From contig NZ_JAIPUT010000025.1 of the NCBI RefSeq assembly GCF_020055635.1, forward strand, positions 1 through 59,282: a stretch of 59,282 bases of DNA. Reading direction: 5' to 3'. Positions 3,803 through 58,391 of the stretch are shown piece by piece. The position numbers and the translations under genes were made by a program. The stretch comes from Marivita sp. (GTDB lineage: Bacteria; Pseudomonadota; Alphaproteobacteria; Rhodobacterales; Rhodobacteraceae). The stretch's first letter is position 1; every line of letters starts with the position of its first letter. The notes under the pieces are model-generated. The model was not told the origin of the DNA, did not search any database, and worked only from the letters and a program-made list of their open reading frames with translations.

Positions 3803-3817
3803 GTTCGCTATGCGCAC
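3803..3817. promoter_or_regulatory. Putative IclR-type operator before the TRAP operon
   Basis: GTTCG-N5-CGCAC matches the shared element of the window in its 15-base form. It lies in the 262-base gap between dctQ (leftward) and the end of the peptide-ABC operon, where the TRAP promoter must be. The preceding sequence lacks a good CGAAC arm, so only two half-sites are visible. Confidence 0.6.
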
Positions 3818-3941
3818 AATGCGAATTTTTTGAATTTCCGGCTCGGCCAAATCCAATTTCGTCAAGAGAATTCTCCGGTATTCCTGCTCAGATCCGCCGT
3901 TCAGGCGCCGATGCAGGCCAGTCGTCAGAGGGCGTTGCGCT

Positions 3942-4931
3942 TCAGTCTGCGACCAGCTTTTCCGCGAAATGACAAGCGGAGCGGGACTCGCCGACGGACC
4001 GCAGGACCGGGCGCTCGGACCTGCAGCGGTCTTGCGCGAGCGGGCAACGTGGGTGATAGGCACAGCCCTTGGGAGGGTTGATCGGATCGGGGATCTCACC
4101 GGTGGGCGGTTCGGTCTCCCGCCCGAACCCATCCAGCTTTGGTGCAGCTTCCAGAAGCATCTTTGTGTAGGGATGGCGCGGAGTGGTGAAAAGCGCATCC
4201 GGTGCCGCCTCTTCGACCAGACGACCAAGGTAAAGCACACCGATCCGATCCGCCATGTGACGCACGACGGTCAGATCGTGGCTGATGAACAGGAACGTCA
4301 GTCCAAGGTCTGTCTTGAGGTCGGACATCAGGTTCAGAACCTGCGCCTGAACGCTCACATCAAGGGCCGATGTCGGCTCGTCGCATACGATGAAGCGCGG
4401 GTTAGACGACAGGGCGCGTGCAATGCAAAGGCGTTGCCGTTGCCCACCCGAGAATTCGTGCGGATACTTGTCGGCATCTTCTGCGGACAACCCGACCTGT
4501 TCCAGCAAGCGTTCTGCAAGACCGGTCGTGTCACCACCCCGGGCGGCCACAGGTTCGGTGATGATGTTTCGCACGCGCCAACGGGGGTTGAGACTTGCAT
4601 AAGGATCCTGAAACACCATCTGGATTCGCTCACGCGCCGCATCCATGGCCTTGGCGGATGTCTCGCGGGACAGGTCGACGCCCCCGATGGTGACTGACCC
4701 GTCGGTTGGGGTCAGCAATCCCACCATCATCTTGCCGATCGTGGATTTGCCCGATCCGCTTTCACCGACCAGTGCATAGGTCTCTTTAGCGGGAATATCG
4801 AAAGACACGTCCGACACGGCGGTGAGAATGCTCTTGGGCAAACGCTCCACCACGCGGTTCAGCCACGGTTTGGACACGTCGAACCTGCGCGTAAGATTGC
4901 GCACGGACACCATGGCAGGTTTGGTCGACAT
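3942..4931 (-). CDS. Peptide ABC transporter ATPase, DppF/OppF type (system 1)
   Basis: This 329-residue cytoplasmic ATPase has Walker A GESGSGKS (56-63), the signature SGGQRQR, Walker B FIVCDEPTSALD and the C-terminal oligopeptide-transporter tail with a cysteine cluster (CAYHPRCPLAQDRC) typical of OppF/DppF. The start is the ATG at 4931, which overlaps the stop of the preceding ATPase gene by one base (TGATG). It is the last gene of a long leftward operon. It should pair with the neighbouring DppD-like ATPase and the two permeases; the substrate class is peptides or peptide-like compounds by family. Confidence 0.92.
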   Translation of the reverse strand: MSTKPAMVSVRNLTRRFDVSKPWLNRVVERLPKSILTAVSDVSFDIPAKETYALVGESGSGKSTIGKMMVGLLTPTDGSVTIGGVDLSRETSAKAMDAARERIQMVFQDPYASLNPRWRVRNIITEPVAARGGDTTGLAERLLEQVGLSAEDADKYPHEFSGGQRQRLCIARALSSNPRFIVCDEPTSALDVSVQAQVLNLMSDLKTDLGLTFLFISHDLTVVRHMADRIGVLYLGRLVEEAAPDALFTTPRHPYTKMLLEAAPKLDGFGRETEPPTGEIPDPINPPKGCAYHPRCPLAQDRCRSERPVLRSVGESRSACHFAEKLVAD

Positions 4932-5926
4932 CAGGCGATATCCTTGGCTGTTTCTGTGGCACCGACCGGAAACCAGCATGCAGCCCGACCCTCGTCTGCT
5001 GCCAGTGTCGGGCCAAGGTCGCGACGGCAGGCCGTCTGCGCCCGATTGCAGCGCGGGTGAAAGGCGCATCCTTGGGGCAGCGCCCCTAGACGGGGCATGT
5101 TGCCAGGAATTTGACGCAAGCGGGTCTGGCCGAGTGACGCCAACGGGGCCGACCCCATCAGCCCCTCGGTATAGGGATGGCGCGGACGGGTCAGCACCTC
5201 GCGCACCGGACCCAGCTCGGCGGTGCGGCCGGCATACATGACGGCAACCTTGTCAGCGGTTTCGGCGATTACGCCCATATCATGGGTGACCAGCATCACC
5301 GCAGTGCCGCGGTCCCGGCACAGTCGCCGCAGGAGCGTGATGATCTGGGCTTGCACGCTGACATCAAGGGCGGTTGTCGGTTCGTCCGCAATCACCAGCG
5401 ATGGCTCGGCACAGAGCGCCAGCGCGATGACAACCCGCTGGCGCATCCCGCCGGAAAACGCGTGCGGGTAACTGTCGATGCGTTCACGCGCACCGGGAAT
5501 ACCTACTTCCTCAAGCGCTTTCACAGCGCGCTCGCGCGCCTCGGATTGCGAGATCGGAAGGTGTTCGCGCATGGTTTCGATTAACTGTTCGCCCACGGTC
5601 AACAGCGGATTGAGGCTGGTCAACGGATCCTGAAACACCATGCCGATGCCGGTGCCTCGAATCTTGCGCATGTCTGATGGCGACAGGGTGTCGATGCGTC
5701 GCCCGTTCAGATACACCTCACCCGATACGATCTGAGCGGGACGGTCCAGAAGCCCGATCACCGCGTTGCCGGTCATGGATTTGCCCGCACCGGATTCCCC
5801 GACAACGCCAAGGATCTCTCCCCGTGCGATGTCAAAGCTGACATTGTCGACAGGGCGCAGAACAGCGTGACGGGTCTGGATCTCGACCACCAAGTTGCGG
5901 ACGGACAGAACGGGTGTGTCGGTCAT
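4931..5926 (-). CDS. Peptide ABC transporter ATPase, DppD/OppD type (system 1)
   Basis: The 331-residue ATPase has Walker A GESGAGKS (43-50), a Q-loop in VFQDPLTSLNP, signature SGGMRQR, Walker B LVIADEPTTALD and a C-terminal cysteine tail CAFHPRCNRAQTAC. The MRQR signature and IPGNMPRLGALPQGCAF tail are typical of the DppD/OppD branch. Its ATG overlaps the stop of the upstream permease by 4 bases, so the two are translationally coupled. Confidence 0.92.
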   Translation of the reverse strand: MTDTPVLSVRNLVVEIQTRHAVLRPVDNVSFDIARGEILGVVGESGAGKSMTGNAVIGLLDRPAQIVSGEVYLNGRRIDTLSPSDMRKIRGTGIGMVFQDPLTSLNPLLTVGEQLIETMREHLPISQSEARERAVKALEEVGIPGARERIDSYPHAFSGGMRQRVVIALALCAEPSLVIADEPTTALDVSVQAQIITLLRRLCRDRGTAVMLVTHDMGVIAETADKVAVMYAGRTAELGPVREVLTRPRHPYTEGLMGSAPLASLGQTRLRQIPGNMPRLGALPQGCAFHPRCNRAQTACRRDLGPTLAADEGRAACWFPVGATETAKDIA

Positions 5927-6879
5927 TTCAGCCTCGGGTTCAACGCATCACGCAGCCAGTCGCCCAGCAGGTTCACGCTGAGCGCCAACATCAGAAGGGT
6001 GACAGCGGGAAAGAACAGGATCCACCACTCCCCGGAGAACAGGAATCCCTGCCCAATGCGGATCAGCGTGCCAAGGCTGGGCTGTGTCGGGGGCGCACCG
6101 ACGCCCAGAAAGGACAGTGTCGCTTCAGCGATGATGGCCAGTGCAAGCGATATTGTGGCGATTACAAGAACCGGCGACATTACGTTGGGCAGGATATGCC
6201 TCAGCATGATCGCACCCTTGCTACGGCCGATCAGGCGCGCGGCCTGCACATATTCCTTGTTCTTCTCGACCAGAGTGGCCCCACGCACGACGCGGGCGAA
6301 CTGAACCCAGTCCGACAGGCCGATCGCGATGATCAGCACCCAGATTGCCATCTGGTCACGGTATTCCACCGGCGTGATGCCCTTGGCGATGCCAAAGATC
6401 AACATGGCGACCAGGATGGCGGGAAAGGTCAGCTGAACATCGGCGGCACGCATGATGATGGTTTCGGTCCAGCCACCAAGGTAGCCCGCCAGCAAGCCCA
6501 GAGTGACCCCCAACAGCATGGCGAACAGGACGGCAGCAAAGCCCACGAACAGCGAGATGCGCATGCCGAAAAGGATAGTCGAGAACACATCGCGGCCCTG
6601 ATCGTCGGTGCCCAGCCAGAACACCTCGCCACTGAACATGTTGGGTTCCATCGGCGGGGTGAACCCGTTCATCAGATTGAGAGAGCCCGGATCGAACGGA
6701 TCGTACGGCGCCACCAGCGGCGCAAAGACCGCGCCCAGAACCAGTGTCATCAGGACGAGGAAAGACACGATCGCAACCGGAGAGCGGCGGAATTTCCAAG
6801 CGAAATCCGACTGCCATGCCGATGTGAACCGTGACATGCGCGCTCGGGTAGCGGCAGGGGGTGGCGTGGTTTCGACCAT
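5923..6879 (-). CDS. Peptide ABC transporter permease, DppC/OppC type (system 1)
   Basis: This inner-membrane permease of 318 residues has the OppC N-terminal extension and first helix (SPVAIVSFLVLMTLVLGAVF), the WLGTDDQGRDVFSTILFGMRIS motif specific to the DppC/OppC branch, and the EAA loop around VQAARLIGRSKGAIMLRHILPN that contacts the ATPases. An in-frame start at 6921 would overlap the upstream gene; the ATG at 6879 with AAGGGA upstream is preferred. It follows the DppB-like gene by one base. Confidence 0.92.
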   Translation of the reverse strand: MVETTPPPAATRARMSRFTSAWQSDFAWKFRRSPVAIVSFLVLMTLVLGAVFAPLVAPYDPFDPGSLNLMNGFTPPMEPNMFSGEVFWLGTDDQGRDVFSTILFGMRISLFVGFAAVLFAMLLGVTLGLLAGYLGGWTETIIMRAADVQLTFPAILVAMLIFGIAKGITPVEYRDQMAIWVLIIAIGLSDWVQFARVVRGATLVEKNKEYVQAARLIGRSKGAIMLRHILPNVMSPVLVIATISLALAIIAEATLSFLGVGAPPTQPSLGTLIRIGQGFLFSGEWWILFFPAVTLLMLALSVNLLGDWLRDALNPRLK

Positions 6880-6880
6880 G

Positions 6881-7861
6881 CTAGTGTCCCTTCGTGCCAT
6901 CGACGCGCAGACGCGGGTCAATGGCGAAATAAAGCAGATCGACGATCAGATTGATGCCGACGAACATGACCGAAATCAGCATCAGATAAGCCGCCATTAC
7001 CGGGATATCGACGAACTGGATCGCGTTGATGAACAAAAGGCCGACACCCGGCCACTGAAACACGGTTTCGGTGATGATCGCAAAAGCGATGATCGAGCCT
7101 AGTTGCAGGCCGGTAACAGTGATCACCGGCACCAGCGTATTCTTTAGTGCATGGCGGAAGTTGACCGACTTTTCACGCAATCCCCGCGCCCGGGCAAAGC
7201 GGATGTAATCCTGCCGCAGCACCTCGAGCATCTCGGATCGTACCAGACGCATGATCAACGTCATCTGGTATAGCCCCAATGTGATCGAGGGCAGGATAAG
7301 CGCCTTGAGCCCGCTTTGCGTCAGAAACCCGGTGGTCCACCACCCAAGGTCCACGGTGTCGCCGCGCCCGAAACTGGGCAGCATGTCCAACTCGACCGAA
7401 AACACCCAGATCAGCAGAATGCCGATCAGGAAGGTGGGTAACGAAACACCGACAAGTGAAAGTGTCATGATGACGTTCGACCCAATGCCATTGCGTCGGA
7501 TCGCGGTGAAAACGCCGAACCCGATACCGAACAGCATCGCAAAGACACCCGACACAAAGGCCAGTTCCAGCGTCGCAGGAAGGCGTTCTGCGATGATCTG
7601 CGACACCTCGCGGCCCTGGCGGTAGGACAGACCGAAATTGCCTTGGAAAGCGTTGCCAAGGAACGTCCAGTACTGAACCACAATGGGCTGATCGAGACCC
7701 ATTTGTTCGCGCAGCCGGTCGACATCTGCTTGCGTGCGTTCCTGTCCCAGCATGTTCTCGACCGGATCGCCGACAAAGCTGAACATCGCGAAGGCCACCA
7801 GCCCCACGATCAGCAATACCAGAACGGATTGGAAAACGCGCCTGAGAATGAAGGCAATCAT
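6881..7861 (-). CDS. Peptide ABC transporter permease, DppB/OppB type (system 1)
   Basis: The 326-residue permease starts with the typical OppB/DppB sequence MIAFILRRVFQSVLVLLIVGLVAF, then the family segment LGLDQPIVVQYWTFLGNAFQGNFG, and ends with VDLLYFAIDPRLR. Six transmembrane segments and the EAA motif (ARGLREKSVNFRHALKNTLVPVITV) are visible. It forms the translocation pore with the DppC-like partner. A hairpin-containing gap of 110 bases separates it from the binding-protein gene. Confidence 0.92.
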   Translation of the reverse strand: MIAFILRRVFQSVLVLLIVGLVAFAMFSFVGDPVENMLGQERTQADVDRLREQMGLDQPIVVQYWTFLGNAFQGNFGLSYRQGREVSQIIAERLPATLELAFVSGVFAMLFGIGFGVFTAIRRNGIGSNVIMTLSLVGVSLPTFLIGILLIWVFSVELDMLPSFGRGDTVDLGWWTTGFLTQSGLKALILPSITLGLYQMTLIMRLVRSEMLEVLRQDYIRFARARGLREKSVNFRHALKNTLVPVITVTGLQLGSIIAFAIITETVFQWPGVGLLFINAIQFVDIPVMAAYLMLISVMFVGINLIVDLLYFAIDPRLRVDGTKGH

Positions 7862-7934
7862 GCGGCTCAGCTTTCAAAGAAGTCGTCAGAGTGCGCAGAC
7901 AGGTGCCTGTCTGTACTTCGCCCGTCAAGGGGTG

Positions 7935-7962
7935 GGGGACGGCACGTCACCGTGCCCTCCCC
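7935..7962. promoter_or_regulatory. Intercistronic hairpin between binding protein and permease genes
   Basis: GGGGACGGCACG (7935-7946) pairs with CGTGCCCTCCCC (7951-7962) around a 4-base loop, with one mismatch. It sits just after the stop of the binding-protein gene. In other peptide-ABC operons such hairpins protect the 3' end of the binding-protein mRNA or reduce read-through, which sets the excess of receptor over permease. That role here is inferred from position. Confidence 0.5.
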
Positions 7963-7971
7963 GGGATCGCA

Positions 7972-9546
7972 TCAGTCGACGGTGAAGTACTTCACCTTTA
8001 CCTGATCGTCGGAATCCATTGCCGCACCGACTTTTCCATCCATCGCCCAGTTCAGAACCTGGTGGTGGATCGGCAGGTAAACCACGTCATCCTTCACGAT
8101 CTGCCACATCTCCGCGACCATCGCGTCGCGCTTTTCAAGATCGACTTCCTGCGCGATCGCCTGGGTCATCTCGTCGATCTTGGCGTTGGAATAGCGCGTG
8201 CCGTTCCAAGTGCCGAAGAGTTCGCCCTTGGTGTGGTACAAGAAGTTAAAGATGTATTCGGAATCGTAGGACGGGATTCCCCAGCCCAGCATGTAGAAAT
8301 CCGACTCAAGCCCGTTGACCAGCGGGAAATGCTGCGCCTTGGGAAGCGCCTCGAGATTCACCGTGACACCGATCTGCGCCAGCATCCCGACAGTGGCCTG
8401 GCAGATCGCCTCATCGTTGATGTAGCGGTCGTTCGGGCAGTTCAGCGTGATTGAGAAGCCGTCACCGTAACCTGCCTCTTCCATCAGCGCCTTGGCTGCG
8501 GCGACATCCCATTCCGGGTAGGAATCCAGTTCTTCCGTCCAACCCTGAACGAAGGGCGGGGCAATCATCCCAGCCGGCTGCGACTGGCCACGCATCACGA
8601 CCTGCTGAATCGCTTCGCGATTGATCGCCATGTTCATCGCCTGCCGAACCTTGACGTCGGTCAGGGGGTTCTTGCCATCGACATTTCCGCCCAGCAGTTC
8701 GTCGCTGAGGTTCAGACCGAAAAAGATCACGCGGTTCTGCGGTGCGGTCAGCACCTTCTTCCCGTCAGTGGTCTTGATCCGTTCCAGATCCTGCACCGGC
8801 ACGTCCTGAATGAAATCCACCTCACCCGAAAGAAGAGCCGCCATGCGGGTTGCCTGGTTCTGAATCGGGGTGAATTTGATATCGGTGAACTCCATCGGGA
8901 ATTCATCCTTGCCCCAATAGTCCTCGTTGATCGTCATCACCGTCTTGACGTCGTTTTCGCGGCTGACGAGCTTGTAGGGTCCGGTGCCGTTCACGTTTTG
9001 CGAGGCAAAGGTTTCCTCGCCACCCTCGACATCTTGGACGTCGACGACATTGTTCACCTCGGCCCAGCCCTTGTCGATGACGAAGATGTTGGGCAGCGTC
9101 GCGGGAAGAATAGGGTTCGGACCGTTCGTGATGATGTTCACTTCGTAGTCGTTCACCGCTTCGACGGAGGCGACGGACGAGATGATGCCCTTCATGTCGC
9201 TTTCTTCAGAGAGCGCCCGCTCGAAGGAAAATACGACGTCCTCGGCGGTGAAATCCGCACCATCGTGGAATGTCACACCTTCGCGCAGCTTGAAATTCCA
9301 GACTTCCGGATTGTCGGGGCTGACCGACCATTCGGTTGCGAGCGCGGCTTGCAGATTACCGTCCGGTGCGCGCAGGATCAGCGGTTCCATCATCTGGTGC
9401 ATCACCGCGATCGTCACACCTTCGTTCTGGGCATGCGGGTCCAGGGTCAGCGCATCCCCCGCGCGTGCCCATTTCAGCGTTTCGGCGCTGGCCGACGCGC
9501 CAAGAACCAGCGACATGGCCGTCGCCATCAACATCGTCTTTTTCAT
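7972..9546 (-). CDS. Peptide ABC transporter substrate-binding protein (SBP_bac_5, system 1)
   Basis: This periplasmic receptor has 524 residues from the ATG at 9546, which has GGGAG upstream. A longer in-frame start at 9672 would bury the signal peptide. The Sec signal is MKKTMLMATAMSLVLGASASA, with cleavage likely after ASA. Family-5 features include LKWARAGDALTLDPHAQNEG, WNFKLREGVTFHDGADFTAEDVVFSFER and NGTGPYKLVSRE. It heads the transporter part of the operon that begins with the M20 and M24 genes. Ligands of the family are di- and oligopeptides, opines, nickel and glycosides; the ligand here is unknown. Confidence 0.92.
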   Translation of the reverse strand: MKKTMLMATAMSLVLGASASAETLKWARAGDALTLDPHAQNEGVTIAVMHQMMEPLILRAPDGNLQAALATEWSVSPDNPEVWNFKLREGVTFHDGADFTAEDVVFSFERALSEESDMKGIISSVASVEAVNDYEVNIITNGPNPILPATLPNIFVIDKGWAEVNNVVDVQDVEGGEETFASQNVNGTGPYKLVSRENDVKTVMTINEDYWGKDEFPMEFTDIKFTPIQNQATRMAALLSGEVDFIQDVPVQDLERIKTTDGKKVLTAPQNRVIFFGLNLSDELLGGNVDGKNPLTDVKVRQAMNMAINREAIQQVVMRGQSQPAGMIAPPFVQGWTEELDSYPEWDVAAAKALMEEAGYGDGFSITLNCPNDRYINDEAICQATVGMLAQIGVTVNLEALPKAQHFPLVNGLESDFYMLGWGIPSYDSEYIFNFLYHTKGELFGTWNGTRYSNAKIDEMTQAIAQEVDLEKRDAMVAEMWQIVKDDVVYLPIHHQVLNWAMDGKVGAAMDSDDQVKVKYFTVD

Positions 9547-9598
9547 TGCGGAATACTCCCGGTTGGTTTGATTTTTTTGCCTACGGCTGCCGCAGGGT

Positions 9599-9610
9599 GA
9601 ACTTTTGTGC
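9599..9610. promoter_or_regulatory. Weak copy of the shared operator before binding protein 1
   Basis: GAAC-N4-GTGC differs from GAAC-N4-GTTC at one base and has no third half-site. It lies about 50 bases before the binding-protein start in a 122-base gap inside a probable operon. It may be chance. Confidence 0.25.
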
Positions 9611-9668
9611 GGCTGATAAAACGAAAAGCCGCCAGCCCATGCAAGTGTTACCCGCTTGACACGTGGCG

Positions 9669-10757
9669 TCAACGCGCGACGTGCAGCGTTCTTTCAAGCG
9701 ATGACAGGATCTCCGGCCCGTCCCGCCGAAGGATCACGATCTCTTCGAGCCGGATGCCGAACCTGCCCGGAATGTAGATCCCGGGTTCGATCGAAAAGAC
9801 CATGTTTTCGCGCAACTCCGTCTGGGAGGATGAGGTCAGATAGGGTGGTTCGTGTACCTCGAGACCCAAACCATGCCCGGTGCGATGAACAAAGTAGTCG
9901 CCATATCCGGCATCGGTGATCACTTCTCTAGCGGCATCATCGACAACATGTGCTGCCACCCCCGGACGCGCCGCCTCCATTGCCGCCAAAAGCGCGGCTT
10001 CGACAATGGCATGTACCTCTTCGTAGCCGTCCGGAGCATGACCGACTGCGGCCATCCTCGTCATGTCGCTCGGGTAGCCACCATATCCCGCGCCGATGTC
10101 GAAAACGATGCTGTCGCCTTCCTGGATCACGCGGTCACCGGTGGAATGGTGCGGGAATGCGCCATTGGGACCGCTGGCGCACAGTGCAAAGGCCACATCC
10201 GCACCCTGCTCGGCAAAGCTGTCGCGGATGGCAGAGGCCACCTGTTTCTCGGTCAGCCCCGGCTTCAATGCGGCAAACCCCGCTTGCATCGCTTTATCGT
10301 TGACCAGCGCAGACGCTTTGAGCGCTTCGTACTCGTCCGCATCCTTGATCATGCGCAATTTGCCAACGAGTTCCGATGCCAAGACGCGCTTTGCATCCGG
10401 CAGGACGTTGAGAAGCTCCAGCGAGAAATCGGTCCGCATGGTTTCGTCCAGGCAGATCGTCGTGACATCGCCGAATTTCCTGACAACCGCGGCCAGAACG
10501 GCCGACGGCCCATCTTCGTCACGCCAGGTTCGAAGAGGCAAACCGGCATTGGTCCCCGCCTGTTCGGCATTGACGGAGGGCACCACGAAAACGGCCTCTT
10601 GCTGACCGATCAGAGCCAAAGTCAGCCGCTCGTCCGGGTGAGGATGCCAATCGAGTGCCCATTGCATATGCGCCGCCGGGCCAAGCGCCACGAGGTCGAT
10701 GCCCTGCGCAGACATTTCAGAGCGGATCGCGTCAAGTTTCCGGTTCAGTTCTGTCAT
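9669..10757 (-). CDS. M24-family metallopeptidase (Xaa-Pro peptidase-like)
   Basis: The 362-residue cytoplasmic protein has the creatinase N-terminal domain (about 1-125) and a pita-bread M24 domain. All five dinuclear-metal ligands can be seen: the two Asp of FDIGAGYGGYPSDMTRM, the His in HRTGHGLGLEVHEPPY, and the Glu residues of SIEPGIYIP and IRLEEIVIL. This argues for a metal-dependent hydrolase cutting Xaa-Pro or a related amide, not for metal-free creatinase. It lies between the M20 hydrolase (25 bases upstream) and the peptide transporter, so it probably processes what the transporter imports. Confidence 0.9.
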   Translation of the reverse strand: MTELNRKLDAIRSEMSAQGIDLVALGPAAHMQWALDWHPHPDERLTLALIGQQEAVFVVPSVNAEQAGTNAGLPLRTWRDEDGPSAVLAAVVRKFGDVTTICLDETMRTDFSLELLNVLPDAKRVLASELVGKLRMIKDADEYEALKASALVNDKAMQAGFAALKPGLTEKQVASAIRDSFAEQGADVAFALCASGPNGAFPHHSTGDRVIQEGDSIVFDIGAGYGGYPSDMTRMAAVGHAPDGYEEVHAIVEAALLAAMEAARPGVAAHVVDDAAREVITDAGYGDYFVHRTGHGLGLEVHEPPYLTSSSQTELRENMVFSIEPGIYIPGRFGIRLEEIVILRRDGPEILSSLERTLHVAR

Positions 10758-10782
10758 TCGTCACATCCTTTGTTGCGTAGGC

Positions 10783-12189: not shown

Positions 12190-12235
12190 GGAAGCCTTCC
12201 TAAATCGCCGGCCAGGCGAAAGCAGTTTCACTGAG

Positions 12236-12259: not shown

Positions 12260-12264
12260 TGTTG

Positions 12265-13658: not shown

Positions 13659-13681
13659 GATGTCCCTCTCTTGCAATGCGA

Positions 13682-16305: not shown

Positions 16306-16312
16306 TCCACGG

Positions 16313-48159: not shown

Positions 48160-48160
48160 G

Positions 48161-48994: not shown

Positions 48995-49000
48995 ACTCTC

Positions 49001-50104: not shown

Positions 50105-50117
50105 GAAAGGACCAAAA

Positions 50118-51521
50118 ATGGCGCATATCAGGGATCTTGACCGGGCCTACGTCTTCCACCCGTTCAGCATGGCCAACGCACATGAGCAAAGCGGAGCCGC
50201 CATGATGGCGCAAACCGCGCAAGGTTGTTGGATCACCGATGACACGGGCAAGCGGTATTTCGATGCGATGGCGGGCCTTTGGTGTGTGAATGTCGGTTAT
50301 GGTCGTGACCGTATTGCCGATGCAATGGCCGACCAGGCGCGCAAGCTGTCATATTTTCACGGCTTTTCATCGATGGCGACAGAGCCCGCTGCCCTTTTGG
50401 CCGAACGGGTGATCGTGAAAGCGCCCGAAGGGTTCAGCAAAGTGTTCTTCGGAGCATCGGGCTCTGACGCGAATGACACGCAGGCGAAGTTGGCCTGGTT
50501 TTACAACAATGCCCGCGACATGCCGCAGAAGAAAAAGATTATCTCGCGGGATCGCGGTTATCACGGCGTGACTGTCATGACGGGTGGGCTGACCGGGCTT
50601 CCCGGACTGCACGCGGGTTTCGATCTGCCGCTGCCGATGATCCGCCATGTCTCGGCCCCGCACAACTTGTGGACACGGCTGCCCGGAGAGGACGATGCCG
50701 CTTTCAGCGACCGCCTGGCACAGGAACTCGATGATCTGATTATCGCCGAAGGGCCCGATACTGTCGCGGCCTTTATCGCCGAGCCAGTCATGGGCGCAGG
50801 TGGCGTGATTGTTCCACCAGAAGGCTACTTCCCCAAGATACAAGCCGTGCTCGACCGCTACGATGTCCTTTTGATCGCCGACGAGGTGATCTGCGGCTTC
50901 GGTCGGCTTGGCACTTGGTTCGGGTCTGACAAGATGAACATGAAGCCGGACCTCATGTCAGTCGCCAAGGGCATCACTTCTGGATATGCACCTTTGTCAG
51001 GCGTTCTGGTTAGCGACAAGGTCTGGTCGGTGATCGCAGGTCAGGGTGCCGCCAAATTCGGCGCGTTTGGACATGGATACACCTACACCGCACATCCGGT
51101 GATGGCCGCAGCCGCGCTGGCAAATCTCGACATTTTGGAAGAGGACGATCTTGTCAGACGCGCGGGCGAGATGGGAACGTATCTGAACGACACCCTGCAA
51201 AAAGCGTTTGTCGATCTGCCCATCGCAGCCGAAGTTCGCGGATGCGGTCTTGTCGCCGCGGTCGAGTTTGCGCAACCCACTTCGGAGGGCTGGCGCAAGT
51301 TCGACCCCAAGCTTACCGTCGCCGCCCGCATCGTGCGCGCCGCGCTGGAAGACGGCGTGATTGCGCGCGCTTTGCCCAACGGGGATGCGGTGTCGTTTTC
51401 CCCGCCTTTCACCGCCACGCATGAAGAAATCGATCTTGCCATCTCGACCATTCGACGCGCCGCCGAGCGGACATACAGCGCATTGAAGGCAGACGGAAAA
51501 CTCATCACCACACCAGCCTGA
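50118..51521 (+). CDS. Class III (omega) aminotransferase
   Basis: The 467-residue PLP enzyme has Asp255 in LLIADEVICGFGR and the Schiff-base Lys284 in SVAKGITSGYAPLSG. The N-terminal half with YFHGFSSMATEPAALLAE and VFFGASGSDANDTQ resembles beta-alanine/pyruvate- and taurine-pyruvate-type omega-aminotransferases. The amino donor is probably a terminal or secondary-carbon amine formed from the imported compound. AGGA precedes the ATG 13 bases after the ATPase stop. Confidence 0.92.
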   Translation: MAHIRDLDRAYVFHPFSMANAHEQSGAAMMAQTAQGCWITDDTGKRYFDAMAGLWCVNVGYGRDRIADAMADQARKLSYFHGFSSMATEPAALLAERVIVKAPEGFSKVFFGASGSDANDTQAKLAWFYNNARDMPQKKKIISRDRGYHGVTVMTGGLTGLPGLHAGFDLPLPMIRHVSAPHNLWTRLPGEDDAAFSDRLAQELDDLIIAEGPDTVAAFIAEPVMGAGGVIVPPEGYFPKIQAVLDRYDVLLIADEVICGFGRLGTWFGSDKMNMKPDLMSVAKGITSGYAPLSGVLVSDKVWSVIAGQGAAKFGAFGHGYTYTAHPVMAAAALANLDILEEDDLVRRAGEMGTYLNDTLQKAFVDLPIAAEVRGCGLVAAVEFAQPTSEGWRKFDPKLTVAARIVRAALEDGVIARALPNGDAVSFSPPFTATHEEIDLAISTIRRAAERTYSALKADGKLITTPA

Positions 51522-51531
51522 GGTCAGACCA

Positions 51532-52449
51532 GTGAACAGAACCAGCATAGACTGGACGGGCGCCATGCCCGCGATAACCACCCCCTTCGCCCAATCAGGC
51601 GAGGTGGATCACGATGGCCTTGCCAAGAACATCCGCCGCCTGCTGTCAGCAGGATCAACCGGCGTCATCGCGGCCGGGTGCACCGGCGAATTCTGGAGCC
51701 TGACCGAAACCGAACGATCCGCGGTCTACAAGACGGCGGTCAACACGGTGGGACACAAAGGCACCACCATCGTCGGTGCCGCTGCGATCACGCCGTCGGG
51801 TGTGATCGAGGCGCTTCATGCCGCGAAAGAGGCAGGATGTAACGGCGCTCTCGTGCTTCCCCCGTACTTCGCACACCTCACGGAACGCGAGGTGATCCGT
51901 CACTTTGAAACGGTTGCGGCCAATGCACCGCTGCCGATCATGCTCTACAACATTCCCGGAAATGCCGGAAATGCGCTGACGCCGCAGATCGTCGATGTCC
52001 TTGCCGATCTTGATCCGGTCGTAGCGATCAAGGAAAGCTCTGGCGACTGGATCAATTTCCAGAAAACGCTGAACGTCTGCCGGGACCGGATCAAGGTATT
52101 CTGCGGCCCGTCGTCAACCATCGGCGTTCCCGCGATGCTGGCTGGGTGTGACGGGTTGATCGACTGCTTCCCGAACGTTTGGACAGGATGTATTGACATG
52201 TGGTCCCTCTTCCAGTCGGGCAAGATCGAAACCGCTTGGGAATACCAGGCCCGCGCACAGGCGCTGACCGATCTTTTTGTCAGCGGCGGGCGCACGTTGT
52301 ATCCGGCGACAAAGGCTGCGATGGATCACCTGGGCTATCCCGGCGGGGGTGCACCGCGTGCGCCGCTGCAACCGCTCGAAGAACCGGCCTTGCAGGAATT
52401 GCTCCAGGGGTTGGACCGGATTCTGGACCGCAATGATTCCGCAGCTTGA
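51532..52449 (+). CDS. DapA-family lyase (second copy)
   Basis: The 305-residue DapA-fold protein has CTGEF (50-54, Cys in place of the usual first Thr), Tyr139 in IMLYNIPG and Schiff-base Lys167 in VVAIKESSGD. It is not a recent duplicate of the copy at 38208. Likely roles are keto-acid aldolase, dehydratase or deaminase. The start is a GTG with GAGG upstream, 10 bases after the aminotransferase stop. Confidence 0.9.
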   Translation: MNRTSIDWTGAMPAITTPFAQSGEVDHDGLAKNIRRLLSAGSTGVIAAGCTGEFWSLTETERSAVYKTAVNTVGHKGTTIVGAAAITPSGVIEALHAAKEAGCNGALVLPPYFAHLTEREVIRHFETVAANAPLPIMLYNIPGNAGNALTPQIVDVLADLDPVVAIKESSGDWINFQKTLNVCRDRIKVFCGPSSTIGVPAMLAGCDGLIDCFPNVWTGCIDMWSLFQSGKIETAWEYQARAQALTDLFVSGGRTLYPATKAAMDHLGYPGGGAPRAPLQPLEEPALQELLQGLDRILDRNDSAA

Positions 52450-52485
52450 AAGCTGTGTCACTGAAAACGAAAGGAAGCTATTCGC

Positions 52486-53268
52486 ATGGATTTGGGGCTC
52501 AAGGGACGCAGGGCAATCGTCAGCGCGGCAAGCAAGGGGCTGGGCCGGGCCTGCGCCATGTCACTGGCCGGAGAAGGGGTTGATCTTGTTCTGAACGCGC
52601 GCTCCGAGGATGCTCTGGAAGCAACCGCCGAGGACATTCGCAAAGCGCATGGCGTCAAGGTCACGACCGTCGCCGCCGATTACAACACCGATGACGGGCG
52701 CGAGGCGGTATTTGCCGCAGCCGGTGAGCCGGACATTCTCGTGACCAATCCCGGAGTGCGGCAGATCCCCGGCGATTTCAACGAATGGGACAAGTCGGAC
52801 TGGCAGTACTGGCTCGACGTGCATTTCTTCTCGTCGCTTCAGATGATCCAGAAGGTGTTGCCGGGAATGCGCGAACGCAAATTTGGCCGGATCGTCAACA
52901 TCTCGGTCAGCTTCATCAAGTTCCCGCAGCAGAACTTTGCGCATTCCCATTCGGCACGGCTGGCCCTGTCCGGCGCGATTGCGTCGATGGTGCGGGATGT
53001 GGCGCCCGACAATGTGACGATGAACACCGTCTGCCCCGGTTTCTTCGATACCGACGCACTGCACACCAACCTGCACAACCACGCGCGGCGCGGCAACACC
53101 ACCTACGAGGCGATTGTCGAGAACCGCCTGCAAAGCGTGCCAGCCGGCCGGTTTGCCGATCCGTCGGAATGCGGCGATCTGGTCGCCTTCCTGTGCTCGG
53201 CGCAGGCCGGGTTCATTCTGGGTCAGAACATCATCAACGATGGCGGCGTCTACCAGGGTCTCTTCTGA
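52486..53268 (+). CDS. Atypical SDR-family protein without the YxxxK motif
   Basis: The 260-residue protein has the SDR cofactor site (SAASKGLG) and the segment VTMNTVCPGFFDTDAL, but the catalytic Tyr-x3-Lys is replaced: the aligned stretch reads AHSHSARLALSG. This matches the 3-oxoacyl reductase-like subgroup in which LSNxxRA stands in place of YxxSK. The protein may bind a nucleotide without classic hydride-transfer chemistry or may use other residues. AAAGGAAG precedes the ATG. The stop overlaps the next SDR by one base (TGATG). Confidence 0.85.
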   Translation: MDLGLKGRRAIVSAASKGLGRACAMSLAGEGVDLVLNARSEDALEATAEDIRKAHGVKVTTVAADYNTDDGREAVFAAAGEPDILVTNPGVRQIPGDFNEWDKSDWQYWLDVHFFSSLQMIQKVLPGMRERKFGRIVNISVSFIKFPQQNFAHSHSARLALSGAIASMVRDVAPDNVTMNTVCPGFFDTDALHTNLHNHARRGNTTYEAIVENRLQSVPAGRFADPSECGDLVAFLCSAQAGFILGQNIINDGGVYQGLF

Positions 53269-53969
53269 TGGACCCACGACTTGTCATGGTCTCCGGAGGC
53301 GCACGTGGTCTTGGCGCGGCGCTGGTCCAGCGGTGCCTCGATGATGGCTACCGCGTGTCCGTCGGCGCGCGCAGCCCCGATGCAGTAAGAGAAGCTTTCG
53401 GTCACAACGTGACCGCGCACAGGTTCGACGCAGACGATCCCAGTACAGCGCAATCTTGGGTCGATGCCACGGTTGCCCAGATGGGTGCGCCCGATGCGCT
53501 CATCAACAATGCCGGTATCCTGCGGATGGTGACGTTCGACAACGGTGACGAAGACGATCTCGATACCATGTGGGGCGTTAACGTCAAGGCCCCGTTTCGC
53601 CTGATCCGCGCCGCCCTGCCCCATCTCAAGGCCTCGGGTCGCGGGCGTGTGGTCAACATTGCCTCGACCGATGGCAAACGTTATCGCGATGCCAACGCCT
53701 CCATCGGTTACGTGATGACCAAGCAGGCGCTGATCGCCATGACTCACGCGGTGCGCTTCGCCGGGTGGGACGAGGGGTTGCGCGGCACCGCCATTTGTCC
53801 GGGTGCCATCGACACCGAGATGATCGCGGATTTACCCGGCGTCACGCCAAAGGCGCAACGCCTGCAACCGCAGGACGTCGGCGAGATCGTGTCACTGGTG
53901 CTCAAACTGCCCAATCAGGCCAGCATCCCCGAGATCGTCGCCAATACGCGGCTCGAAAGCACGATCTGA
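53268..53969 (+). CDS. Short-chain dehydrogenase/reductase (SDR)
   Basis: The 233-residue classical SDR has SGGARGLG, INNAGILRM, Ser in NIASTDG, and Tyr and Lys in YVMTK. The frame extends upstream to 52785, but the ATG at 53268 directly starts the Rossmann fold. It is coupled by a one-base overlap to the atypical SDR; the two may form a heteromer, as a catalytically intact partner next to an altered one would suggest. Confidence 0.88.
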   Translation: MDPRLVMVSGGARGLGAALVQRCLDDGYRVSVGARSPDAVREAFGHNVTAHRFDADDPSTAQSWVDATVAQMGAPDALINNAGILRMVTFDNGDEDDLDTMWGVNVKAPFRLIRAALPHLKASGRGRVVNIASTDGKRYRDANASIGYVMTKQALIAMTHAVRFAGWDEGLRGTAICPGAIDTEMIADLPGVTPKAQRLQPQDVGEIVSLVLKLPNQASIPEIVANTRLESTI

Positions 53970-54278: not shown

Positions 54279-55829
54279 TTACTCAGCCGCCAAACGCTTG
54301 GCATGTTTGCGCGTATAGGCCCGCCACGTGGTCGCCCATTGCGCCGGGTCGGCCATGTCCGCTCCCTTGATCTGGTGAATCGGCGCGTTGTGCGGCGCGG
54401 TCTTGACCACTTCGGGGGTCTCGTAGGCCTCGTGGATCACATGCTCCATGACGTCGATCCAGTAGTCGATATCCTCGCGCGACCAAAGCTCTCCGGCCTC
54501 GGGCGTGAACGGTTCTGCCACCAGCCACGGCTCATGGCTCAACCACAGCGCGTCGATCCCGAAATCGGTCATGCGGTTCGAGATATCGACGATGGTGCAG
54601 CCGGTATCCTTGGTCACCTGCTCGACCGAATGGCGCGTCATCTCCATGCGCGGCGCAGTGACGTCGGGGTTGGAGCGGCTAACGCCCTTCACCTCGGACA
54701 GCCGCTTGTCCATGTAGTTGTTGGCCAGAACCGAGATATCGGCCGCCGTGCGCAGCCCCTCGGCCCCCATCGCCCGCGCCCAGGCATAGGCCTTGAGCAC
54801 TTGCGGCGCGTTGCCCCAGAATTCGCGCACACGCCCGATGCTTTGCGGGCGGTCGTCGTCGAGCGTGTAGCGGTCTCCGTCCTTGACCACCAAGGGGGAC
54901 GGCAGGAACGGCACAAGATGCTCGGCGCAGCCATAGGCGCCGACCGCCGGACCGCCGCCGCCCTTGGGCGCACCGAAGGTCTTGTGCAGCATGTACATGC
55001 AGGCGTCGAACCCCAGTTCGCGCGCCCGCAGCCGGGTCATCACGCCGTTGAAATTGGCGTGGTCGTAGAAGCACAGCCCCCCGGCCTCGTGCACCAGCCG
55101 CACCCATTCCTTGATGTCGGGATTGTAGATGCCCATGTCGTCGGGGTTGTTCACCATCAGCGCCGCCGTGCGTGGGCCGATCACCGATTTGAGCTGTTCG
55201 ACCGACGGATAGCCGCCCTCCTCGAGGCTCAGCGTGATCACCTCGAACCCGGCGGTATTGGCGGTGGCGGGCGAACAGGGATGCGTCTGGATCGTCGTGA
55301 TGATCTGGTCGCGCTGTTCCAATTCGCCGCGCGAGGCGTGATAGGCGCGGGTCACGCAGGCATGGGTATAGGCCGCATCGGCCCCGCCGCCCGCCTGGAA
55401 CACGAACTGGTCCATGCCGCTGACTTCACAGAGGAAATCGCTGAAATTGTCGTAAAGCTCCAGCACGCCCTGAAGCGTGTCGGGGTGCTGCAACGGATGC
55501 AGGTCCGCCAGGTGCTCCAACGCCGCGCGTTCGCCGATGCGCGGGTTGTATTTCATCGTGCAGGTGCCGAAGAGCGAGACGCCCATCATGCCCAGCGTCA
55601 TCTGGCTAAGATGCAGATAATGGCGCAGCGCGTCGTGCTCCGTCAGTTCGGGCAAGGCGGGCGCGGTCTTGCGAATCGCGCCTTTGGGCAGGTCTGGCGC
55701 GGGTGCATCATCGAACACCACTCCCCGGCGGCCTGGACAGCCCATTTCCATGACCACCGGTTCGGCCCAGCGGGGAGCCTGGAAACCGGTGAATTGCGCT
55801 TTGGTTCTGTTTGCGATGGGGGCGGTCAT
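54279..55829 (-). CDS. gcvPB: Glycine dehydrogenase subunit 2-like protein (divergent P-protein beta half)
   Basis: The 516-residue PLP protein aligns with GcvPB over its length: LFGTCTMKYNPRIGE (87-100), HPLQHPDTLQG, FYDHANFNGVMTRLR and the PLP Lys283 in MLHKTFGAPKGGGGP. Two segments differ from what I recall of true P-proteins: QPAAGAHGE is here QAGGGADAA (145-153), and STPHGGGGPG is GAPKGGGGPA. The substrate may thus not be glycine. There is no gcvH or gcvT in the window. It overlaps the GcvPA-like gene by 4 bases and is last in the operon. Confidence 0.85.
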   Translation of the reverse strand: MTAPIANRTKAQFTGFQAPRWAEPVVMEMGCPGRRGVVFDDAPAPDLPKGAIRKTAPALPELTEHDALRHYLHLSQMTLGMMGVSLFGTCTMKYNPRIGERAALEHLADLHPLQHPDTLQGVLELYDNFSDFLCEVSGMDQFVFQAGGGADAAYTHACVTRAYHASRGELEQRDQIITTIQTHPCSPATANTAGFEVITLSLEEGGYPSVEQLKSVIGPRTAALMVNNPDDMGIYNPDIKEWVRLVHEAGGLCFYDHANFNGVMTRLRARELGFDACMYMLHKTFGAPKGGGGPAVGAYGCAEHLVPFLPSPLVVKDGDRYTLDDDRPQSIGRVREFWGNAPQVLKAYAWARAMGAEGLRTAADISVLANNYMDKRLSEVKGVSRSNPDVTAPRMEMTRHSVEQVTKDTGCTIVDISNRMTDFGIDALWLSHEPWLVAEPFTPEAGELWSREDIDYWIDVMEHVIHEAYETPEVVKTAPHNAPIHQIKGADMADPAQWATTWRAYTRKHAKRLAAE

Positions 55830-57214
55830 GCCAACACCTCCTTCAATGCGGATACAAGTCGGGCGATATCGCCCTCGGTATGGGCTTCAGTCACGCAGAC
55901 CAGCATGCACTGTCCGTCGGCACCCGGCTCGCCACTGATGTCCTTGCCGCCAAAAATCCCGCGCTTGCGCAAGGCGTCGTTCACATCGGCCACCTTTTCG
56001 CCTTCAAAGGTGACCACGAATTCTTTGAAGAACGGACGGCTCAGATCGACGGAACAGCCCGCCAGCCCGTCGATCGCCTTGGCAGCGTGACGCGACCGGG
56101 CCATGATCAGCCGACCGATCTCGGCAAAGCCTTCCGGCCCCATCGCCGCCATGTAGGCGGCATTTGCCAGCGCCCAAAGATAGACCGAATTGCCGGTCCA
56201 GTCCTTGCCTTCCTCGCGGCTGCCATAGGAGCTTTGGTGGAAAAGCGTGAGGCCAAAGCCGTATTCGCCTTCCTTGATCGTTTCCCCGATCGAGATGTTA
56301 AGCGTGTTGTATTCGCTGGCGTACCGCTCCTCATCCGGGCTGGCGATAAAGCCGCCAACACCACCGCCGGCGTTCATGTGAACACCCATTGGTTGTGTGG
56401 GGCCAACAGCGATGGTGGCGCCATAGGCACCCGGCGCTTCCAGTAAGCCCAGCGACAGCGGATCGACGCCGACGATCACCTCGGCCCCCGCCGTGCGAGC
56501 CAGATCGCAAAGCGTGCCGGGGGCGCCCTCGATCACGCCGTGGTAGGATGGCGTCTCGAAGTACAGCGCGGCCACGCTGTCATCCAACTTGGACTTGAGA
56601 TCATTCTGGTCGATGCAGCCATCGGCCCCGATCGCAACCTCGACAATCTCGATGTGGCGCGCCATCTCGCGCGGTTCGCAGTAATTGCGCAGAACCGACA
56701 GGCGTTCGGGGTCCATCACCTCAGTGACAAGCACCTTGCGCCGTCCCGTCATACGCGACGCCATCCGAACGGAATGACCAATCGCGCAGCCCCAAGAATA
56801 CACCGGCAGGCCGACGAAATCCATTTCCACCAGCGTGCCAATCTGGCTGCAAAACTCGAACCACGCCTGGTTGCGACCGTGATCTGATGTAGGCGAGCCA
56901 AAAACCGACGTTTGCCATTCATACCGATTGGCGACCTCGTCGCAGATCGCGGGCACGTAATGCGGCCATGCGCCGGCCCCAAGGAAGGACAGGCTGTCCT
57001 TGCAGGTGACATTCTTGCGCATCAGGTCATCCAGATGCCGCGACAGCGCCACCTCGGATGCCAGTTGCGGTGGCAGGTTGAACGGCTTGGCGTACAGGTG
57101 ATCCTCGGGAATCTGTGAAAACAGGCTGTCTACCGAATTCAGCCCCAGTGCCGACAGCATCTCCTGCTGGATCGACGGGACAGAGTTCGCCATCCACGGA
57201 TGGGCTTTGGTCAT
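55826..57214 (-). CDS. gcvPA: Glycine dehydrogenase subunit 1-like protein (divergent P-protein alpha half)
   Basis: The 462-residue protein has the GcvPA layout: SFLGAGAWPHYVPAICDEVANRYEW (76-100), then a central PLP-fold half. The loop right behind it, conserved in true P-proteins as TPYQPEISQG, reads here SVFGSPTSDHGRN (103-115), and the following segment (GLPVYSWGCAIGHSVRMASR) also lacks the usual NASxxDGATAxAEA. The fold is kept but the substrate loop is rewritten, as in the partner subunit. Start at 57214 with GAGGAG upstream; 31 bases after the AcoX-like gene. Confidence 0.85.
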   Translation of the reverse strand: MTKAHPWMANSVPSIQQEMLSALGLNSVDSLFSQIPEDHLYAKPFNLPPQLASEVALSRHLDDLMRKNVTCKDSLSFLGAGAWPHYVPAICDEVANRYEWQTSVFGSPTSDHGRNQAWFEFCSQIGTLVEMDFVGLPVYSWGCAIGHSVRMASRMTGRRKVLVTEVMDPERLSVLRNYCEPREMARHIEIVEVAIGADGCIDQNDLKSKLDDSVAALYFETPSYHGVIEGAPGTLCDLARTAGAEVIVGVDPLSLGLLEAPGAYGATIAVGPTQPMGVHMNAGGGVGGFIASPDEERYASEYNTLNISIGETIKEGEYGFGLTLFHQSSYGSREEGKDWTGNSVYLWALANAAYMAAMGPEGFAEIGRLIMARSRHAAKAIDGLAGCSVDLSRPFFKEFVVTFEGEKVADVNDALRKRGIFGGKDISGEPGADGQCMLVCVTEAHTEGDIARLVSALKEVLA

Positions 57215-57245
57215 GTCTCAGCTCCTCGTTTTGTCATGTCTCATG

Positions 57246-58340
57246 TCAGTGCACGACCCGGACGACCTGACGCCGCCCCGGCCCTGTTGTGACCTGCCAA
57301 TAGCCGGCCAGCCGCGCATCCAGCGCGACATCGCCGGTATCGACGGTCAATTCCTGCGGATTGAGTGCGTTGAGCTTGTCACTGGCGCAAATCACATCGA
57401 TCCGATCGATCCCGACGCGGTTGATCAGACGACCGGAAATCTGCTGGTTGCCACGCCCCAGAATGAAACCCTGCCCGCCGACAACCGTCAGAACGATCCG
57501 CGCCTTTGCGCCGTCGGCCAGCGCCATGAGCAATTGCTCCTCACTCAGGTCACGGTCGACAATTGCGCCATCACGGGCCAGGTCCACCCCAAGCAGCGTC
57601 CCGCCGCCAAGCCGGTCCTTGAGCGCACCCATTGTTGTGCCCGGACCCAGAATATACAGGCAGCCGTGTTCCATCCGCCGAACATACTCGGCCAGCGCCG
57701 CATCTGTTTCGGCCAGAAGATCTCCTCCCCCGGCCTTGGGGTTTTGCCGCACCCCGCGTGCGACAGGGCTCCTTGCAACGGAAAACAGTTGTGCCGACAA
57801 ACGGCCCGAACGGCGTTCCGCTTCGTCGATATCAAGGATCTCAACCAATTCCACCGGTTGGTCGGGATCTTTCAGAAACGCCGCCGCGGCCTGCCCCGCC
57901 CGTTCCGGACTGCGGGCAAAGACGCCGGAATGCATCTTGACGCCTGCCGGAATGCCAAGGATCGGGACTCCGGAAACGTTGGCGGCGGCCACATCACGGG
58001 CCGTTCCGTCTCCGCCGCAGAACAGGATCAAAGACACCTTTCCCTGCATGCCGGCCACCAATGCCGAGGTATCGGACGCCGAATGGGATAGGGCGTTGAT
58101 GGGCAGGATCGACGCGGCAGGCGCAATATCCTGGCCCAAGCCACCCGGGCCGGTTAGAATGTCGACAGACGGATACATCTGAACAAGCGCAGTCATGGCG
58201 CGCACGGCACGTAAAGGGGCCGTAAGCCGCATGCCATCGGACCTGGCCTGAGCGGCAAGAGCAGGATCGTCGCTGCCTTTCCGGGCCGTCGGACCGCCTA
58301 TTCCGGCATATGGATTCACAAGGAATCCGATCGATGTCAT
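57246..58340 (-). CDS. ATP-NAD/AcoX kinase family protein
   Basis: The 364-residue protein has an NAD-kinase-like fold with the diacylglycerol-kinase/NAD-kinase motif FCGGDGTARDV and the AcoX-family continuation GIPAGVKMHSGVFA. A C-terminal beta domain follows (VGGQGFILGRGNQQIS). AcoX was first named from acetoin-degradation clusters, where its job is unsolved; no acetoin dehydrogenase gene is visible here. It is the first gene of the operon with the GcvPA/GcvPB-like pair and has an operator copy 28-51 bases upstream. Confidence 0.88.
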   Translation of the reverse strand: MTSIGFLVNPYAGIGGPTARKGSDDPALAAQARSDGMRLTAPLRAVRAMTALVQMYPSVDILTGPGGLGQDIAPAASILPINALSHSASDTSALVAGMQGKVSLILFCGGDGTARDVAAANVSGVPILGIPAGVKMHSGVFARSPERAGQAAAAFLKDPDQPVELVEILDIDEAERRSGRLSAQLFSVARSPVARGVRQNPKAGGGDLLAETDAALAEYVRRMEHGCLYILGPGTTMGALKDRLGGGTLLGVDLARDGAIVDRDLSEEQLLMALADGAKARIVLTVVGGQGFILGRGNQQISGRLINRVGIDRIDVICASDKLNALNPQELTVDTGDVALDARLAGYWQVTTGPGRRQVVRVVH

Positions 58341-58367
58341 GGTCTGGTCAACCTCTCATCAATTTTT

Positions 58368-58391
58368 CGGACTTTTGTTCGCACTTCGAAA
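58368..58391. promoter_or_regulatory. Putative tripartite IclR-type operator before the AcoX-GcvP operon
   Basis: CGGAC-N4-GTTCG-N5-CGAAA: the same spacing as the best site, with one mismatch in each outer half-site. It is 28 bases upstream of the AcoX-like start codon. Confidence 0.55.

Follow-up and report, generated by a model that had tools for sequence, protein, structure and literature searches.

A repeated three-box element and an IclR-family gene suggest one large catabolic regulon in Marivita sp.

Eleven copies of a 25-bp element on a single contig

We analyzed contig NZ_JAIPUT010000025.1 of Marivita sp. (Rhodobacteraceae; assembly GCF_020055635.1). This whole stretch of 59,282 bases, hereafter the window, is the complete contig and does not fix the outer borders of the gene set described here. 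It carries transporter and catabolic operons, a gene for an IclR-family regulator, and, at eleven operon starts, copies of a candidate operator that this regulator likely binds (Table 1). The original prediction, made from the letters of the window alone, had listed eleven repeated elements between genes, and all eleven are present. Also recovered were its six exact GAAC-N4-GTTC motifs (12237, 13682, 24587, 34595, 36082, 45805) and its six GTTC-R-N5-CG-M-AC motifs (3803, 12245, 15093, 36090, 41079, 45813). The borders shift, since the repeated unit is a 25-bp composite (e.g., 3794-3818 instead of 3803 and 15084-15108 instead of 15093), and two copies, 24575-24599 and 37285-37309, have minus-strand orientation. 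Two copies described as intergenic, 13681 and 36081, lie inside the longest drawn open reading frames (ORFs) of a glutamine-synthetase-like and an aldehyde dehydrogenase (ALDH) gene; later start codons, in agreement with relatives, place both upstream of their genes.

Ungapped alignment shows that all eleven sites are one 25-bp element with the consensus CGAACAnTTGTTCGCAATnCGAACA. It consists of three half-sites, CGAACA-N2-TGTTCG-N5-CGAACA: the first two boxes form an inverted pair, and the third, five bases further on, is a direct repeat of the first and forms another inverted pair together with the middle box. By eye, the consensus fits a group 1 pair (TGTYCRYW3RYGRACA) and a group 2 pair (RAACAN1-2TGTTY) that have the middle box in common, matching the TGT-11-ACA subgroup and group 2 in the sections consulted of PMC8222616 (Suvorova and Gelfand, 2021). 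Single sites depart from this consensus, with the third box most deviant in 13681 and 34594. At several sites a second register on the opposite strand also scores (24586+, 36089-, 3783-, 37296+, 45793-, 34583-), the pattern expected from a fourth half-site.

A matrix built from the eleven sites ranked the same eleven as the top 11 places in the window (21.9 to 32.5 bits), compared to a maximum of 17.6 in 30 random windows with matching dinucleotide composition. When each site was left out in turn, scores ranged from 13.7 to 28.4 and ranks from 5 to 23, many of the higher places being overlapping readings of the same sites. Nine of the eleven still exceeded the random maximum; for each of the other two, 34594 and 13681, a relative has a corresponding site in front of the same gene. 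An independent 27-site matrix, from other genomes and purged of sites identical to those of the window, placed its 25 best hits exclusively within ten of the eleven regions, followed by 3367 inside TRAP_Q (10.7 bits) and 13681 (10.0 bits).

Shorter patterns proved less useful. The earlier chance estimate of about one GAAC-N4-GTTC per 59 kb agrees with shuffling (1.06 expected, 11 found), but the motif lacks the specificity implied: five of the 11 window matches lie away from the proposed sites, four in genes (18067, 28004, 37112, 55008) and one beyond the gene list (58539). Across the whole genome it occurs 121 times, compared to 181 for a reversed control pattern, and we dropped it as a test on its own. 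A 24-bp pattern with two mismatches was likewise too loose (148 and 131 matches; controls 133 and 152). The exact 24-bp pattern has four matches, all on this contig; with one mismatch, five of the 16 listed matches fall on the contig, four of them at the proposed sites.

The regulator gene contains both IclR domains (PF09339, 60.7 bits with cut-off 22; PF01614, 133.5 bits with cut-off 24) and barely passes the TIGR02431 model for the PcaR/PcaU/PobR subfamily (284.9 bits with cut-off 284.75). The proposed start at 45682 is probably correct, given that the closest database protein, P0001 (96%), has 284 amino acids, eight residues below the ORF. Its best relatives of solved structure are 2ia2, 5w1e, and 8eju. 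This subfamily is defined by control of beta-ketoadipate pathway genes; at the thresholds used, no beta-ketoadipate or ring-cleavage family was found among the scanned window ORFs, a search that did not extend to the rest of the genome.

The element is nearly confined to this contig

We scanned the Marivita genome (4,941,052 bases, 192 contigs) with two site models, R1 from the eleven window sites and R2 from 30 sites of other genomes, two of which (L021:4607-4631 and L021:9338-9362) are letter-identical to window sites 45804 and 41070. Scoring was limited to the 150 best candidates per scan, and the E-values are rough. At E ≤ 10, R1 gave 12 matches, 11 of them on this contig, comprising ten of the eleven sites and one site read backwards; 37285 was missed. 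R2 gave 10 matches, eight on this contig, comprising seven sites plus one site in reverse reading; it missed 13681, 15084, 34594, and 37285, and its two matches elsewhere were weak. The binomial probability of such confinement is 9e-21 for R1 and 2e-14 for R2, with the caveat that one match in each is a backward reading and that R1 was built from these very sites. Matches off the contig lie on C56 (the remaining R1 match), C186, and C144; the last scores 24.0, adjoins genes unlike those of the regulon, and is taken as chance. The element is enriched at operon starts and rare in the rest of the genome.

The element accompanies the regulator across genomes

Loci of relatives were fetched by similarity to the regulator protein only. 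Fifteen were returned, one (L035, 24% identity) was dropped, and 14 close loci (75-88%) were kept. An R1 site adjoins the regulator in all 14, and 13 carry another in the gap between the SDR and 3HCDH-family genes (L022 has none; that of L031 is partial). The half-sites are kept in these loci and the flanks differ. Four loci (L026, L028, L029, L033) are from the same genomes as G211, G002, G025, and G346, and R2 contains their sites; R2 matches in these four genomes are hence partly training sites.

The regulator was detected at E ≤ 1e-60 in 18 of 394 genomes of the family, five at 80-100% identity, ten at 54-62%, and three at 42-43%. R2 (E ≤ 0.5) was given to 26 of the 394, a set that includes neither the Marivita genome nor five of the 18. 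Sites were found in all four genomes with a regulator of 80-83% identity (3-9 sites each), the four that supplied training sites, and in all six with one of 54-59% (2-7 sites each), which supplied none. Neither of the two genomes with a regulator of 42-43% had a site, and one of the 14 without regulator had a single weak match. With stricter filters (E ≤ 0.02), R2 matched in 20 of all 394 genomes, 13 of them with the regulator. Two or more matches occurred in 10 of the 394; all ten have the regulator, and six gave no training site (hypergeometric p ~1e-16 relative to the 15 genomes with a regulator of at least 54%, uncorrected for kinship). Site and regulator therefore occur together across genomes, with the exceptions weighed below. 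The adjacent oxidoreductase (42056-43714) shows the same association: 12 of the 394 genomes encode it (E ≤ 1e-120), and all 12 have the regulator.

Parts of the gene set are carried on plasmids. In Antarctobacter heliothermus, a large part lies on pSMS3-1, with sites at the same gaps, and in Paracoccus aminophilus a smaller core with three site regions lies on pAMI4. The Antarctobacter plasmid cluster is flanked by transposases and contains a gene for a GAF histidine kinase (L048:3877-6400, 20631-21875, 42348-44650). At the thresholds used, another species of Marivita, G371, lacks both the regulator and its neighboring oxidoreductase; this suggests gain or loss in one piece.

Reshuffled operons keep the element

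We mapped the window proteins onto 20 stretches of relatives and ten more. The gene sets are split and reordered: G025 has two groups about 84 kb apart, G211 has them on two contigs, and in G184 a site at C1:186,736 and the regulator at 1,968,849 are 1.78 Mb apart. This distant site precedes an operon for an ABC transporter whose binding protein is of the SBP_bac_3 type (as established on the G211 copy); elsewhere (L066, L071, L096), the operon sits among regulon genes. The same operator stands before copies of this extra operon at L066:11530, L071:5494, L096:2971, and L092:8737; in L066 and L071, the operon is divergent from an aldo/keto-reductase-RidA fusion gene. The Marivita genome has no close ortholog (best 27%).

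With a matrix of window sites only and a distance limit of 250 bp, a site was found in five close relatives at 47 of 50 operon heads, compared to two of 88 inner genes (threshold 14; Fisher p 1e-30). At threshold 17 the counts were 43 of 50 and one of 88. The three misses at threshold 14 all concern ALDH, for which the site falls within the query ORF; ALDH is preceded by a site in all four cases. These stretches contained no TRAP_Q start.

In a side observation, the G142 copy of the Fer2_4/Pyr_redox gene (C203:2708-4369) contains an internal TGA, and the G184 copy (L085:4065-5664) matches in two pieces; the set may be decaying in these genomes.

Operators lie at promoter-like sequences

The TTG of a -35-like element stands at a fixed distance upstream of the operator at several operons: -31 before SBP1 (14 of 16 sequences), -19 before 3HCDH (11 of 14), -15 before TIM (6 of 6), and -27 before AcoX (4 of 4). 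Three of the six promoter-like pairs in 34500-46000 touch operators. One, TTGCCA-18-CATATT, is separated from operator 45804 by a single base; the pairs at 37270-37297 and 34611-34583(-) overlap operators 37285-37309 and 34594-34618, respectively. The odd letters of operator 37285, GTTAG in place of GTTCG, give rise on the other strand to a -10-like TATACT, which five of six sequences contain.

Genes of the contig and the substrate question

Table 1. Predicted operators, genes, and related sites. Sites beside other IclR genes are given by locus of origin.
Feature	Position	Strand	Remarks
IclR-family regulator, PcaR/PcaU/PobR subfamily	44828-45706	-	Real start probably 45682
Operator shared by regulator and sugar-type ABC operon	45804-45828	+	Matrix, R1, close loci; TTGCCA-18-CATATT at 45773-45802
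Operator, gap of SDR (-) and 3HCDH-oxidoreductase operon (+)	41070-41094	+	Same gap in 13/14 close loci
Operator, gap of FAD oxidase (-) and TIM/DHDPS/OYE operon (+)	37285-37309	-	Overlaps -10-like TATACT; missed by R1 and R2
Operator before succinate-semialdehyde-dehydrogenase (SSADH)-like gene	36081-36105	+	Matrix, R1, relatives
Operator before third peptide-type ABC operon	34594-34618	+	Weak third box; matrix, R1, relatives
Operator, gap of peptide-type ABC operon 2 (-) and gene for its binding protein (+)	24575-24599	-	Matrix, R1, relatives
Operator before polyamine-type ABC operon	15084-15108	+	Touches Shine-Dalgarno-like AGGAGG; matrix, R1, relatives
Operator, N-formylglutamate-amidohydrolase (FGase)-like (-) and glutamine-synthetase (GS)-like (+)	13681-13705	+	Weakest; matrix, R1, relatives
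Operator before M20/M24/first peptide-type ABC operon	12236-12260	+	Matrix, R1, R2
Operator before TRAP operon	3794-3818	+	Matrix, R1, R2
Operator before AcoX-GcvPA-GcvPB	58368-58392	+	Matrix, R1, R2; same place in Antarctobacter
TRAP transporter DctP, DctM, DctQ	882-3700	-	
Peptide-type ABC transporter 1, M24 peptidase, M20 amidohydrolase	3942-12231	-	
Isochorismatase-type hydrolase, N-formylglutamate amidohydrolase family protein	12265-13676	-	
GS-like (gamma-glutamylputrescine-synthetase-like, under cut-off)	13647-15041	+	ORF start drawn too far upstream
Polyamine-type (by layout) ABC transporter, polysaccharide-deacetylase-family protein, small protein	15121-20382	+	Binding protein SBP_bac_8, 39 bits
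Cupin/HTH protein, peptide-type ABC transporter 2	20379-24563	-	
Peptide-type binding protein of transporter 2	24727-26316	+	
GST, SDR, M24 peptidase, peptide-type ABC transporter 3	26382-34497	-	
ALDH, SSADH-like	34620-36176	-	Drawn ORF longer than likely gene
FAD-dependent oxidoreductase, sarcosine/glycine-oxidase-like	36133-37254	-	
TIM-barrel isomerase-like, DHDPS-family, FMN oxidoreductase	37356-40249	+	
SDR	40262-41041	-	
3HCDH-family dehydrogenase, Fer2_4/Pyr_redox protein, FAD oxidoreductase	41112-44831	+	
Sugar-type ABC transporter, class-III aminotransferase, DHDPS-family, two SDRs	45849-53969	+	
GcvPB, GcvPA, NAD-kinase-domain protein (AcoX-like per original prediction)	54279-58340	-	
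Near-identical operators beside other IclR genes, genomes without this regulator	L091:2183, L098:6111, L099:6256		

The window encodes six transporter systems, i.e., one TRAP, three peptide-type, one polyamine-type (by layout), and one sugar-type. GcvPA and GcvPB both score above their NCBIfam equivalog cut-offs, and neither GcvT nor GcvH was found among the scanned window ORFs. PDB matches for eight enzymes and transport proteins, as well as NCBIfam models, yielded no more than general names (sarcosine/glycine-oxidase-like, lambda-crystallin-like, DHDPS family, prolidase-like, DctP). The combination of FAD amine- or amino-acid-oxidase-like proteins, GcvPAB, M20 and M24 hydrolases, a gamma-glutamylamine-synthetase-like protein, and an SSADH-like enzyme suggests amino-acid- or peptide-derived nitrogen compounds as the substrate class. 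Ectoine use, brought to mind by the M24, M20, aminotransferase, and ALDH genes, was dropped, as the ectoine models scored far below their cut-offs. Homarine and mycosporine-like amino acids are guesses only, and the literature matches listed offered no gene cluster for comparison.

Several neighboring genes deserve mention. The trio of GcvPA, GcvPB, and NAD-kinase-domain protein (54279-58340) occurs in 12 of the related genomes or plasmids examined, whereas the stretches retrieved from G002, G025, and G162 do not contain it; the literature matches listed include no instance of acoX together with GcvPA and GcvPB. The cupin/HTH gene (20379-20966), inside the predicted regulon, adjoins peptide transporter 2 also in L066, L070, and L073 and is a possible second-level regulator. 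At the left end of the contig, a SnoaL-like gene (232-753) has homologs in L077 and L081, where they lie with the polyamine-type transporter on one side and the TRAP operon on the other. One Rhodobacterales carrier came from a diatom culture.

A single predicted switch and its alternatives

From these patterns we consider it likely that all eleven operon starts are controlled through the 25-bp three-box operator by one PcaR/PcaU-type IclR protein, the product of the gene at 44828-45682, and we predict that this protein is a repressor released by a ligand. Repression is predicted because the operators lie on or beside promoter-like elements. The regulator would bind the operator at each of the eleven operon starts and block RNA polymerase, and would also repress itself through the shared site at 45804-45828. 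The uptake substrate, or a breakdown product of it, would release the protein, and the TRAP, three peptide-type, polyamine-type, and sugar-type transporters would then be made together with the enzymes. The original claim that one IclR protein governs the whole region gains support from the 14 of 14 close loci, the co-occurrence, and the moved operons that keep their site, but exclusive control is likely rather than proven, since related IclR proteins elsewhere have near-identical sites. We also lowered our confidence slightly because R1 and R2 each miss sites genome-wide and because R2 drew training sites from four of the test genomes.

On balance, we lean towards a broader reading, namely a traveling catabolic superregulon in which a PcaR-type regulator has departed from aromatic metabolism. 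It would comprise eleven or more operons and include six or seven transporters of a nitrogen compound, plasmid-borne in some genomes and reshuffled over up to 1.8 Mb; the operator over the promoters, not the gene order, would unite the system.

The sign of control is where the strongest alternative lies. PcaU and PobR act as activators, which makes the sign uncertain, and the protein encoded here could similarly need its ligand to recruit RNA polymerase from a three-box site. Its TIGR02431 placement agrees with such a role, as does the layout itself, which PcaU requires for binding according to the sections consulted of PMC8222616. We nevertheless regard activation as a possible but unlikely explanation: the operators start one base after (45804) or span (37285, 34594) promoter-like hexamers, and an operator-to-TTG distance that varies by operon (-31, -27, -19, -15) is better suited to blocking. 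A different objection concerns who binds. Several IclR proteins of the PcaR subfamily could share the sites, making the contig a meeting place of regulators, and it is true that near-identical sites adjoin other IclR genes in G113, G154, and G200 and that the Marivita genome encodes four more IclR proteins (23-33% identity to the regulator). This reading seems improbable, as the best matrix score around those four genes (loci of 3.6-3.7 kb) is 14.8, with a different, TTTTCG-type half-site, and genomes with multiple matches always have this regulator.

Explanations that dispense with a regulator fare worse. The repeats are short, numerous, and intergenic, as a mobile repeat, processing signal, or other dispersed element would be; we judge this very unlikely, given that half-sites are kept with differing flanks, that the consensus agrees by eye with the published IclR one, and that the element exceeds chance only in regulator genomes. 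Base composition could also favor such palindromes in the AT-rich gaps of a GC-rich genome, and the 121 genome matches of GAAC-N4-GTTC agree with this. The 25-bp composite, however, is nearly confined to these gaps, and cross-genome prediction succeeds in both directions, which leaves chance with hardly any probability.

Some observations nonetheless weigh against control of the whole set by a single repressor. Most of the mapped stretches were fetched for holding sites, and the test therefore lies in the contrast between heads and inner genes, not in the number of sites. Among the 42 site clusters of the close relatives, 10 have no mapped gene start nearby. In a distant clade (regulator ~55%; five genomes and P. 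aminophilus, with heads as defined in the window), sites stand at 32 of 55 heads compared to 14 of 83 inner genes; they are absent at DAO1 (0/5), SDR2 (0/5), ALDH (0/4), FGase (0/2), and GS (0/2) and present in half of the cases at AcoX (3/6). Sites are frequent there at OYE (6/6) and GcvPA (5/6), and operon borders differ in this clade. Seven of the 20 R2-positive genomes (E ≤ 0.02) have no matching regulator; each has one match, and about eight are expected by chance. Of these seven, four were examined: in G113, G154, and G200, the match adjoins another IclR gene (30-34% identity), and in G372 no window gene lies near the site. The operator letters are common to related IclR proteins and not private to this regulator; what is special is that many sites occur together with this regulator. 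Conversely, five of the 18 regulator genomes have no R2 match at E ≤ 0.02 (G118, G162, G229, G330, G347). G229, G330, and G347 are the three with a regulator of 42-43%, and the G162 regulator has a matrix site of 24.6. As for promoters, no fixed-position TTG was found for ALDH (5 sequences) or OppB2 (4), and the six promoter-like pairs in 34500-46000 are not clearly above shuffles (3.3 expected, standard deviation 2.0).

Significance and comparison with known systems

The predicted regulon is directly testable, with about fifty genes under one predicted switch. Its shared operator joins transporters with enzymes of unassigned role, and one inducer would give the whole set a role; it likewise makes testable the question of what substrate Rhodobacterales import through these peptide-, polyamine-, sugar-, and TRAP-type systems. 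If the reading is true, one regulator switching these operons together would let the cell use a food compound. The relatives, in turn, offer a natural record of a regulon surviving operon shuffling and movement between replicons.

The kind of system is known. In the sections consulted of PMC8222616, IclR regulogs span 1-55 COGs, the regulated COGs include ABC and TRAP transporters, three-box sites are predicted in 32 of 181 orthologous groups, and the third box of the PcaU operator is reported as needed for binding. The original statement that such wide control had not been described thus needs qualification, as large IclR regulons and this operator layout are on record; this particular regulon, with its regulator group, gene content, and reshuffling, is without match in the literature searched. 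The computed regulogs of PMC8222616 resemble it in size, three-box sites, and transporters, whereas its main text does not contain the word Rhodobacter and the sections consulted name no such regulon, which its supplementary tables may include.

Compared to PcaU, PobR, and PcaR, the regulator shares the NCBIfam subfamily, by a bare pass, and three alternating half-sites with TGTTC/GAACA boxes. It differs in the gene families of its window, among which no scanned ORF belongs to the beta-ketoadipate pathway or ring cleavage, and in a geometry that suggests repression. PcaU and PobR have one or a few operator regions, compared to eleven here. KdgR and HexR offer a parallel in organization, each being one catabolic repressor with a dispersed regulon of many operons in which transport and breakdown are co-induced. 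In contrast to these, the operons described here are accessory and patchily distributed, some of them plasmid-borne; the window encodes six transporter systems, and relatives add a seventh. What appears new is a patchy, partly plasmid-borne IclR regulon with no beta-ketoadipate genes among the scanned ORFs.

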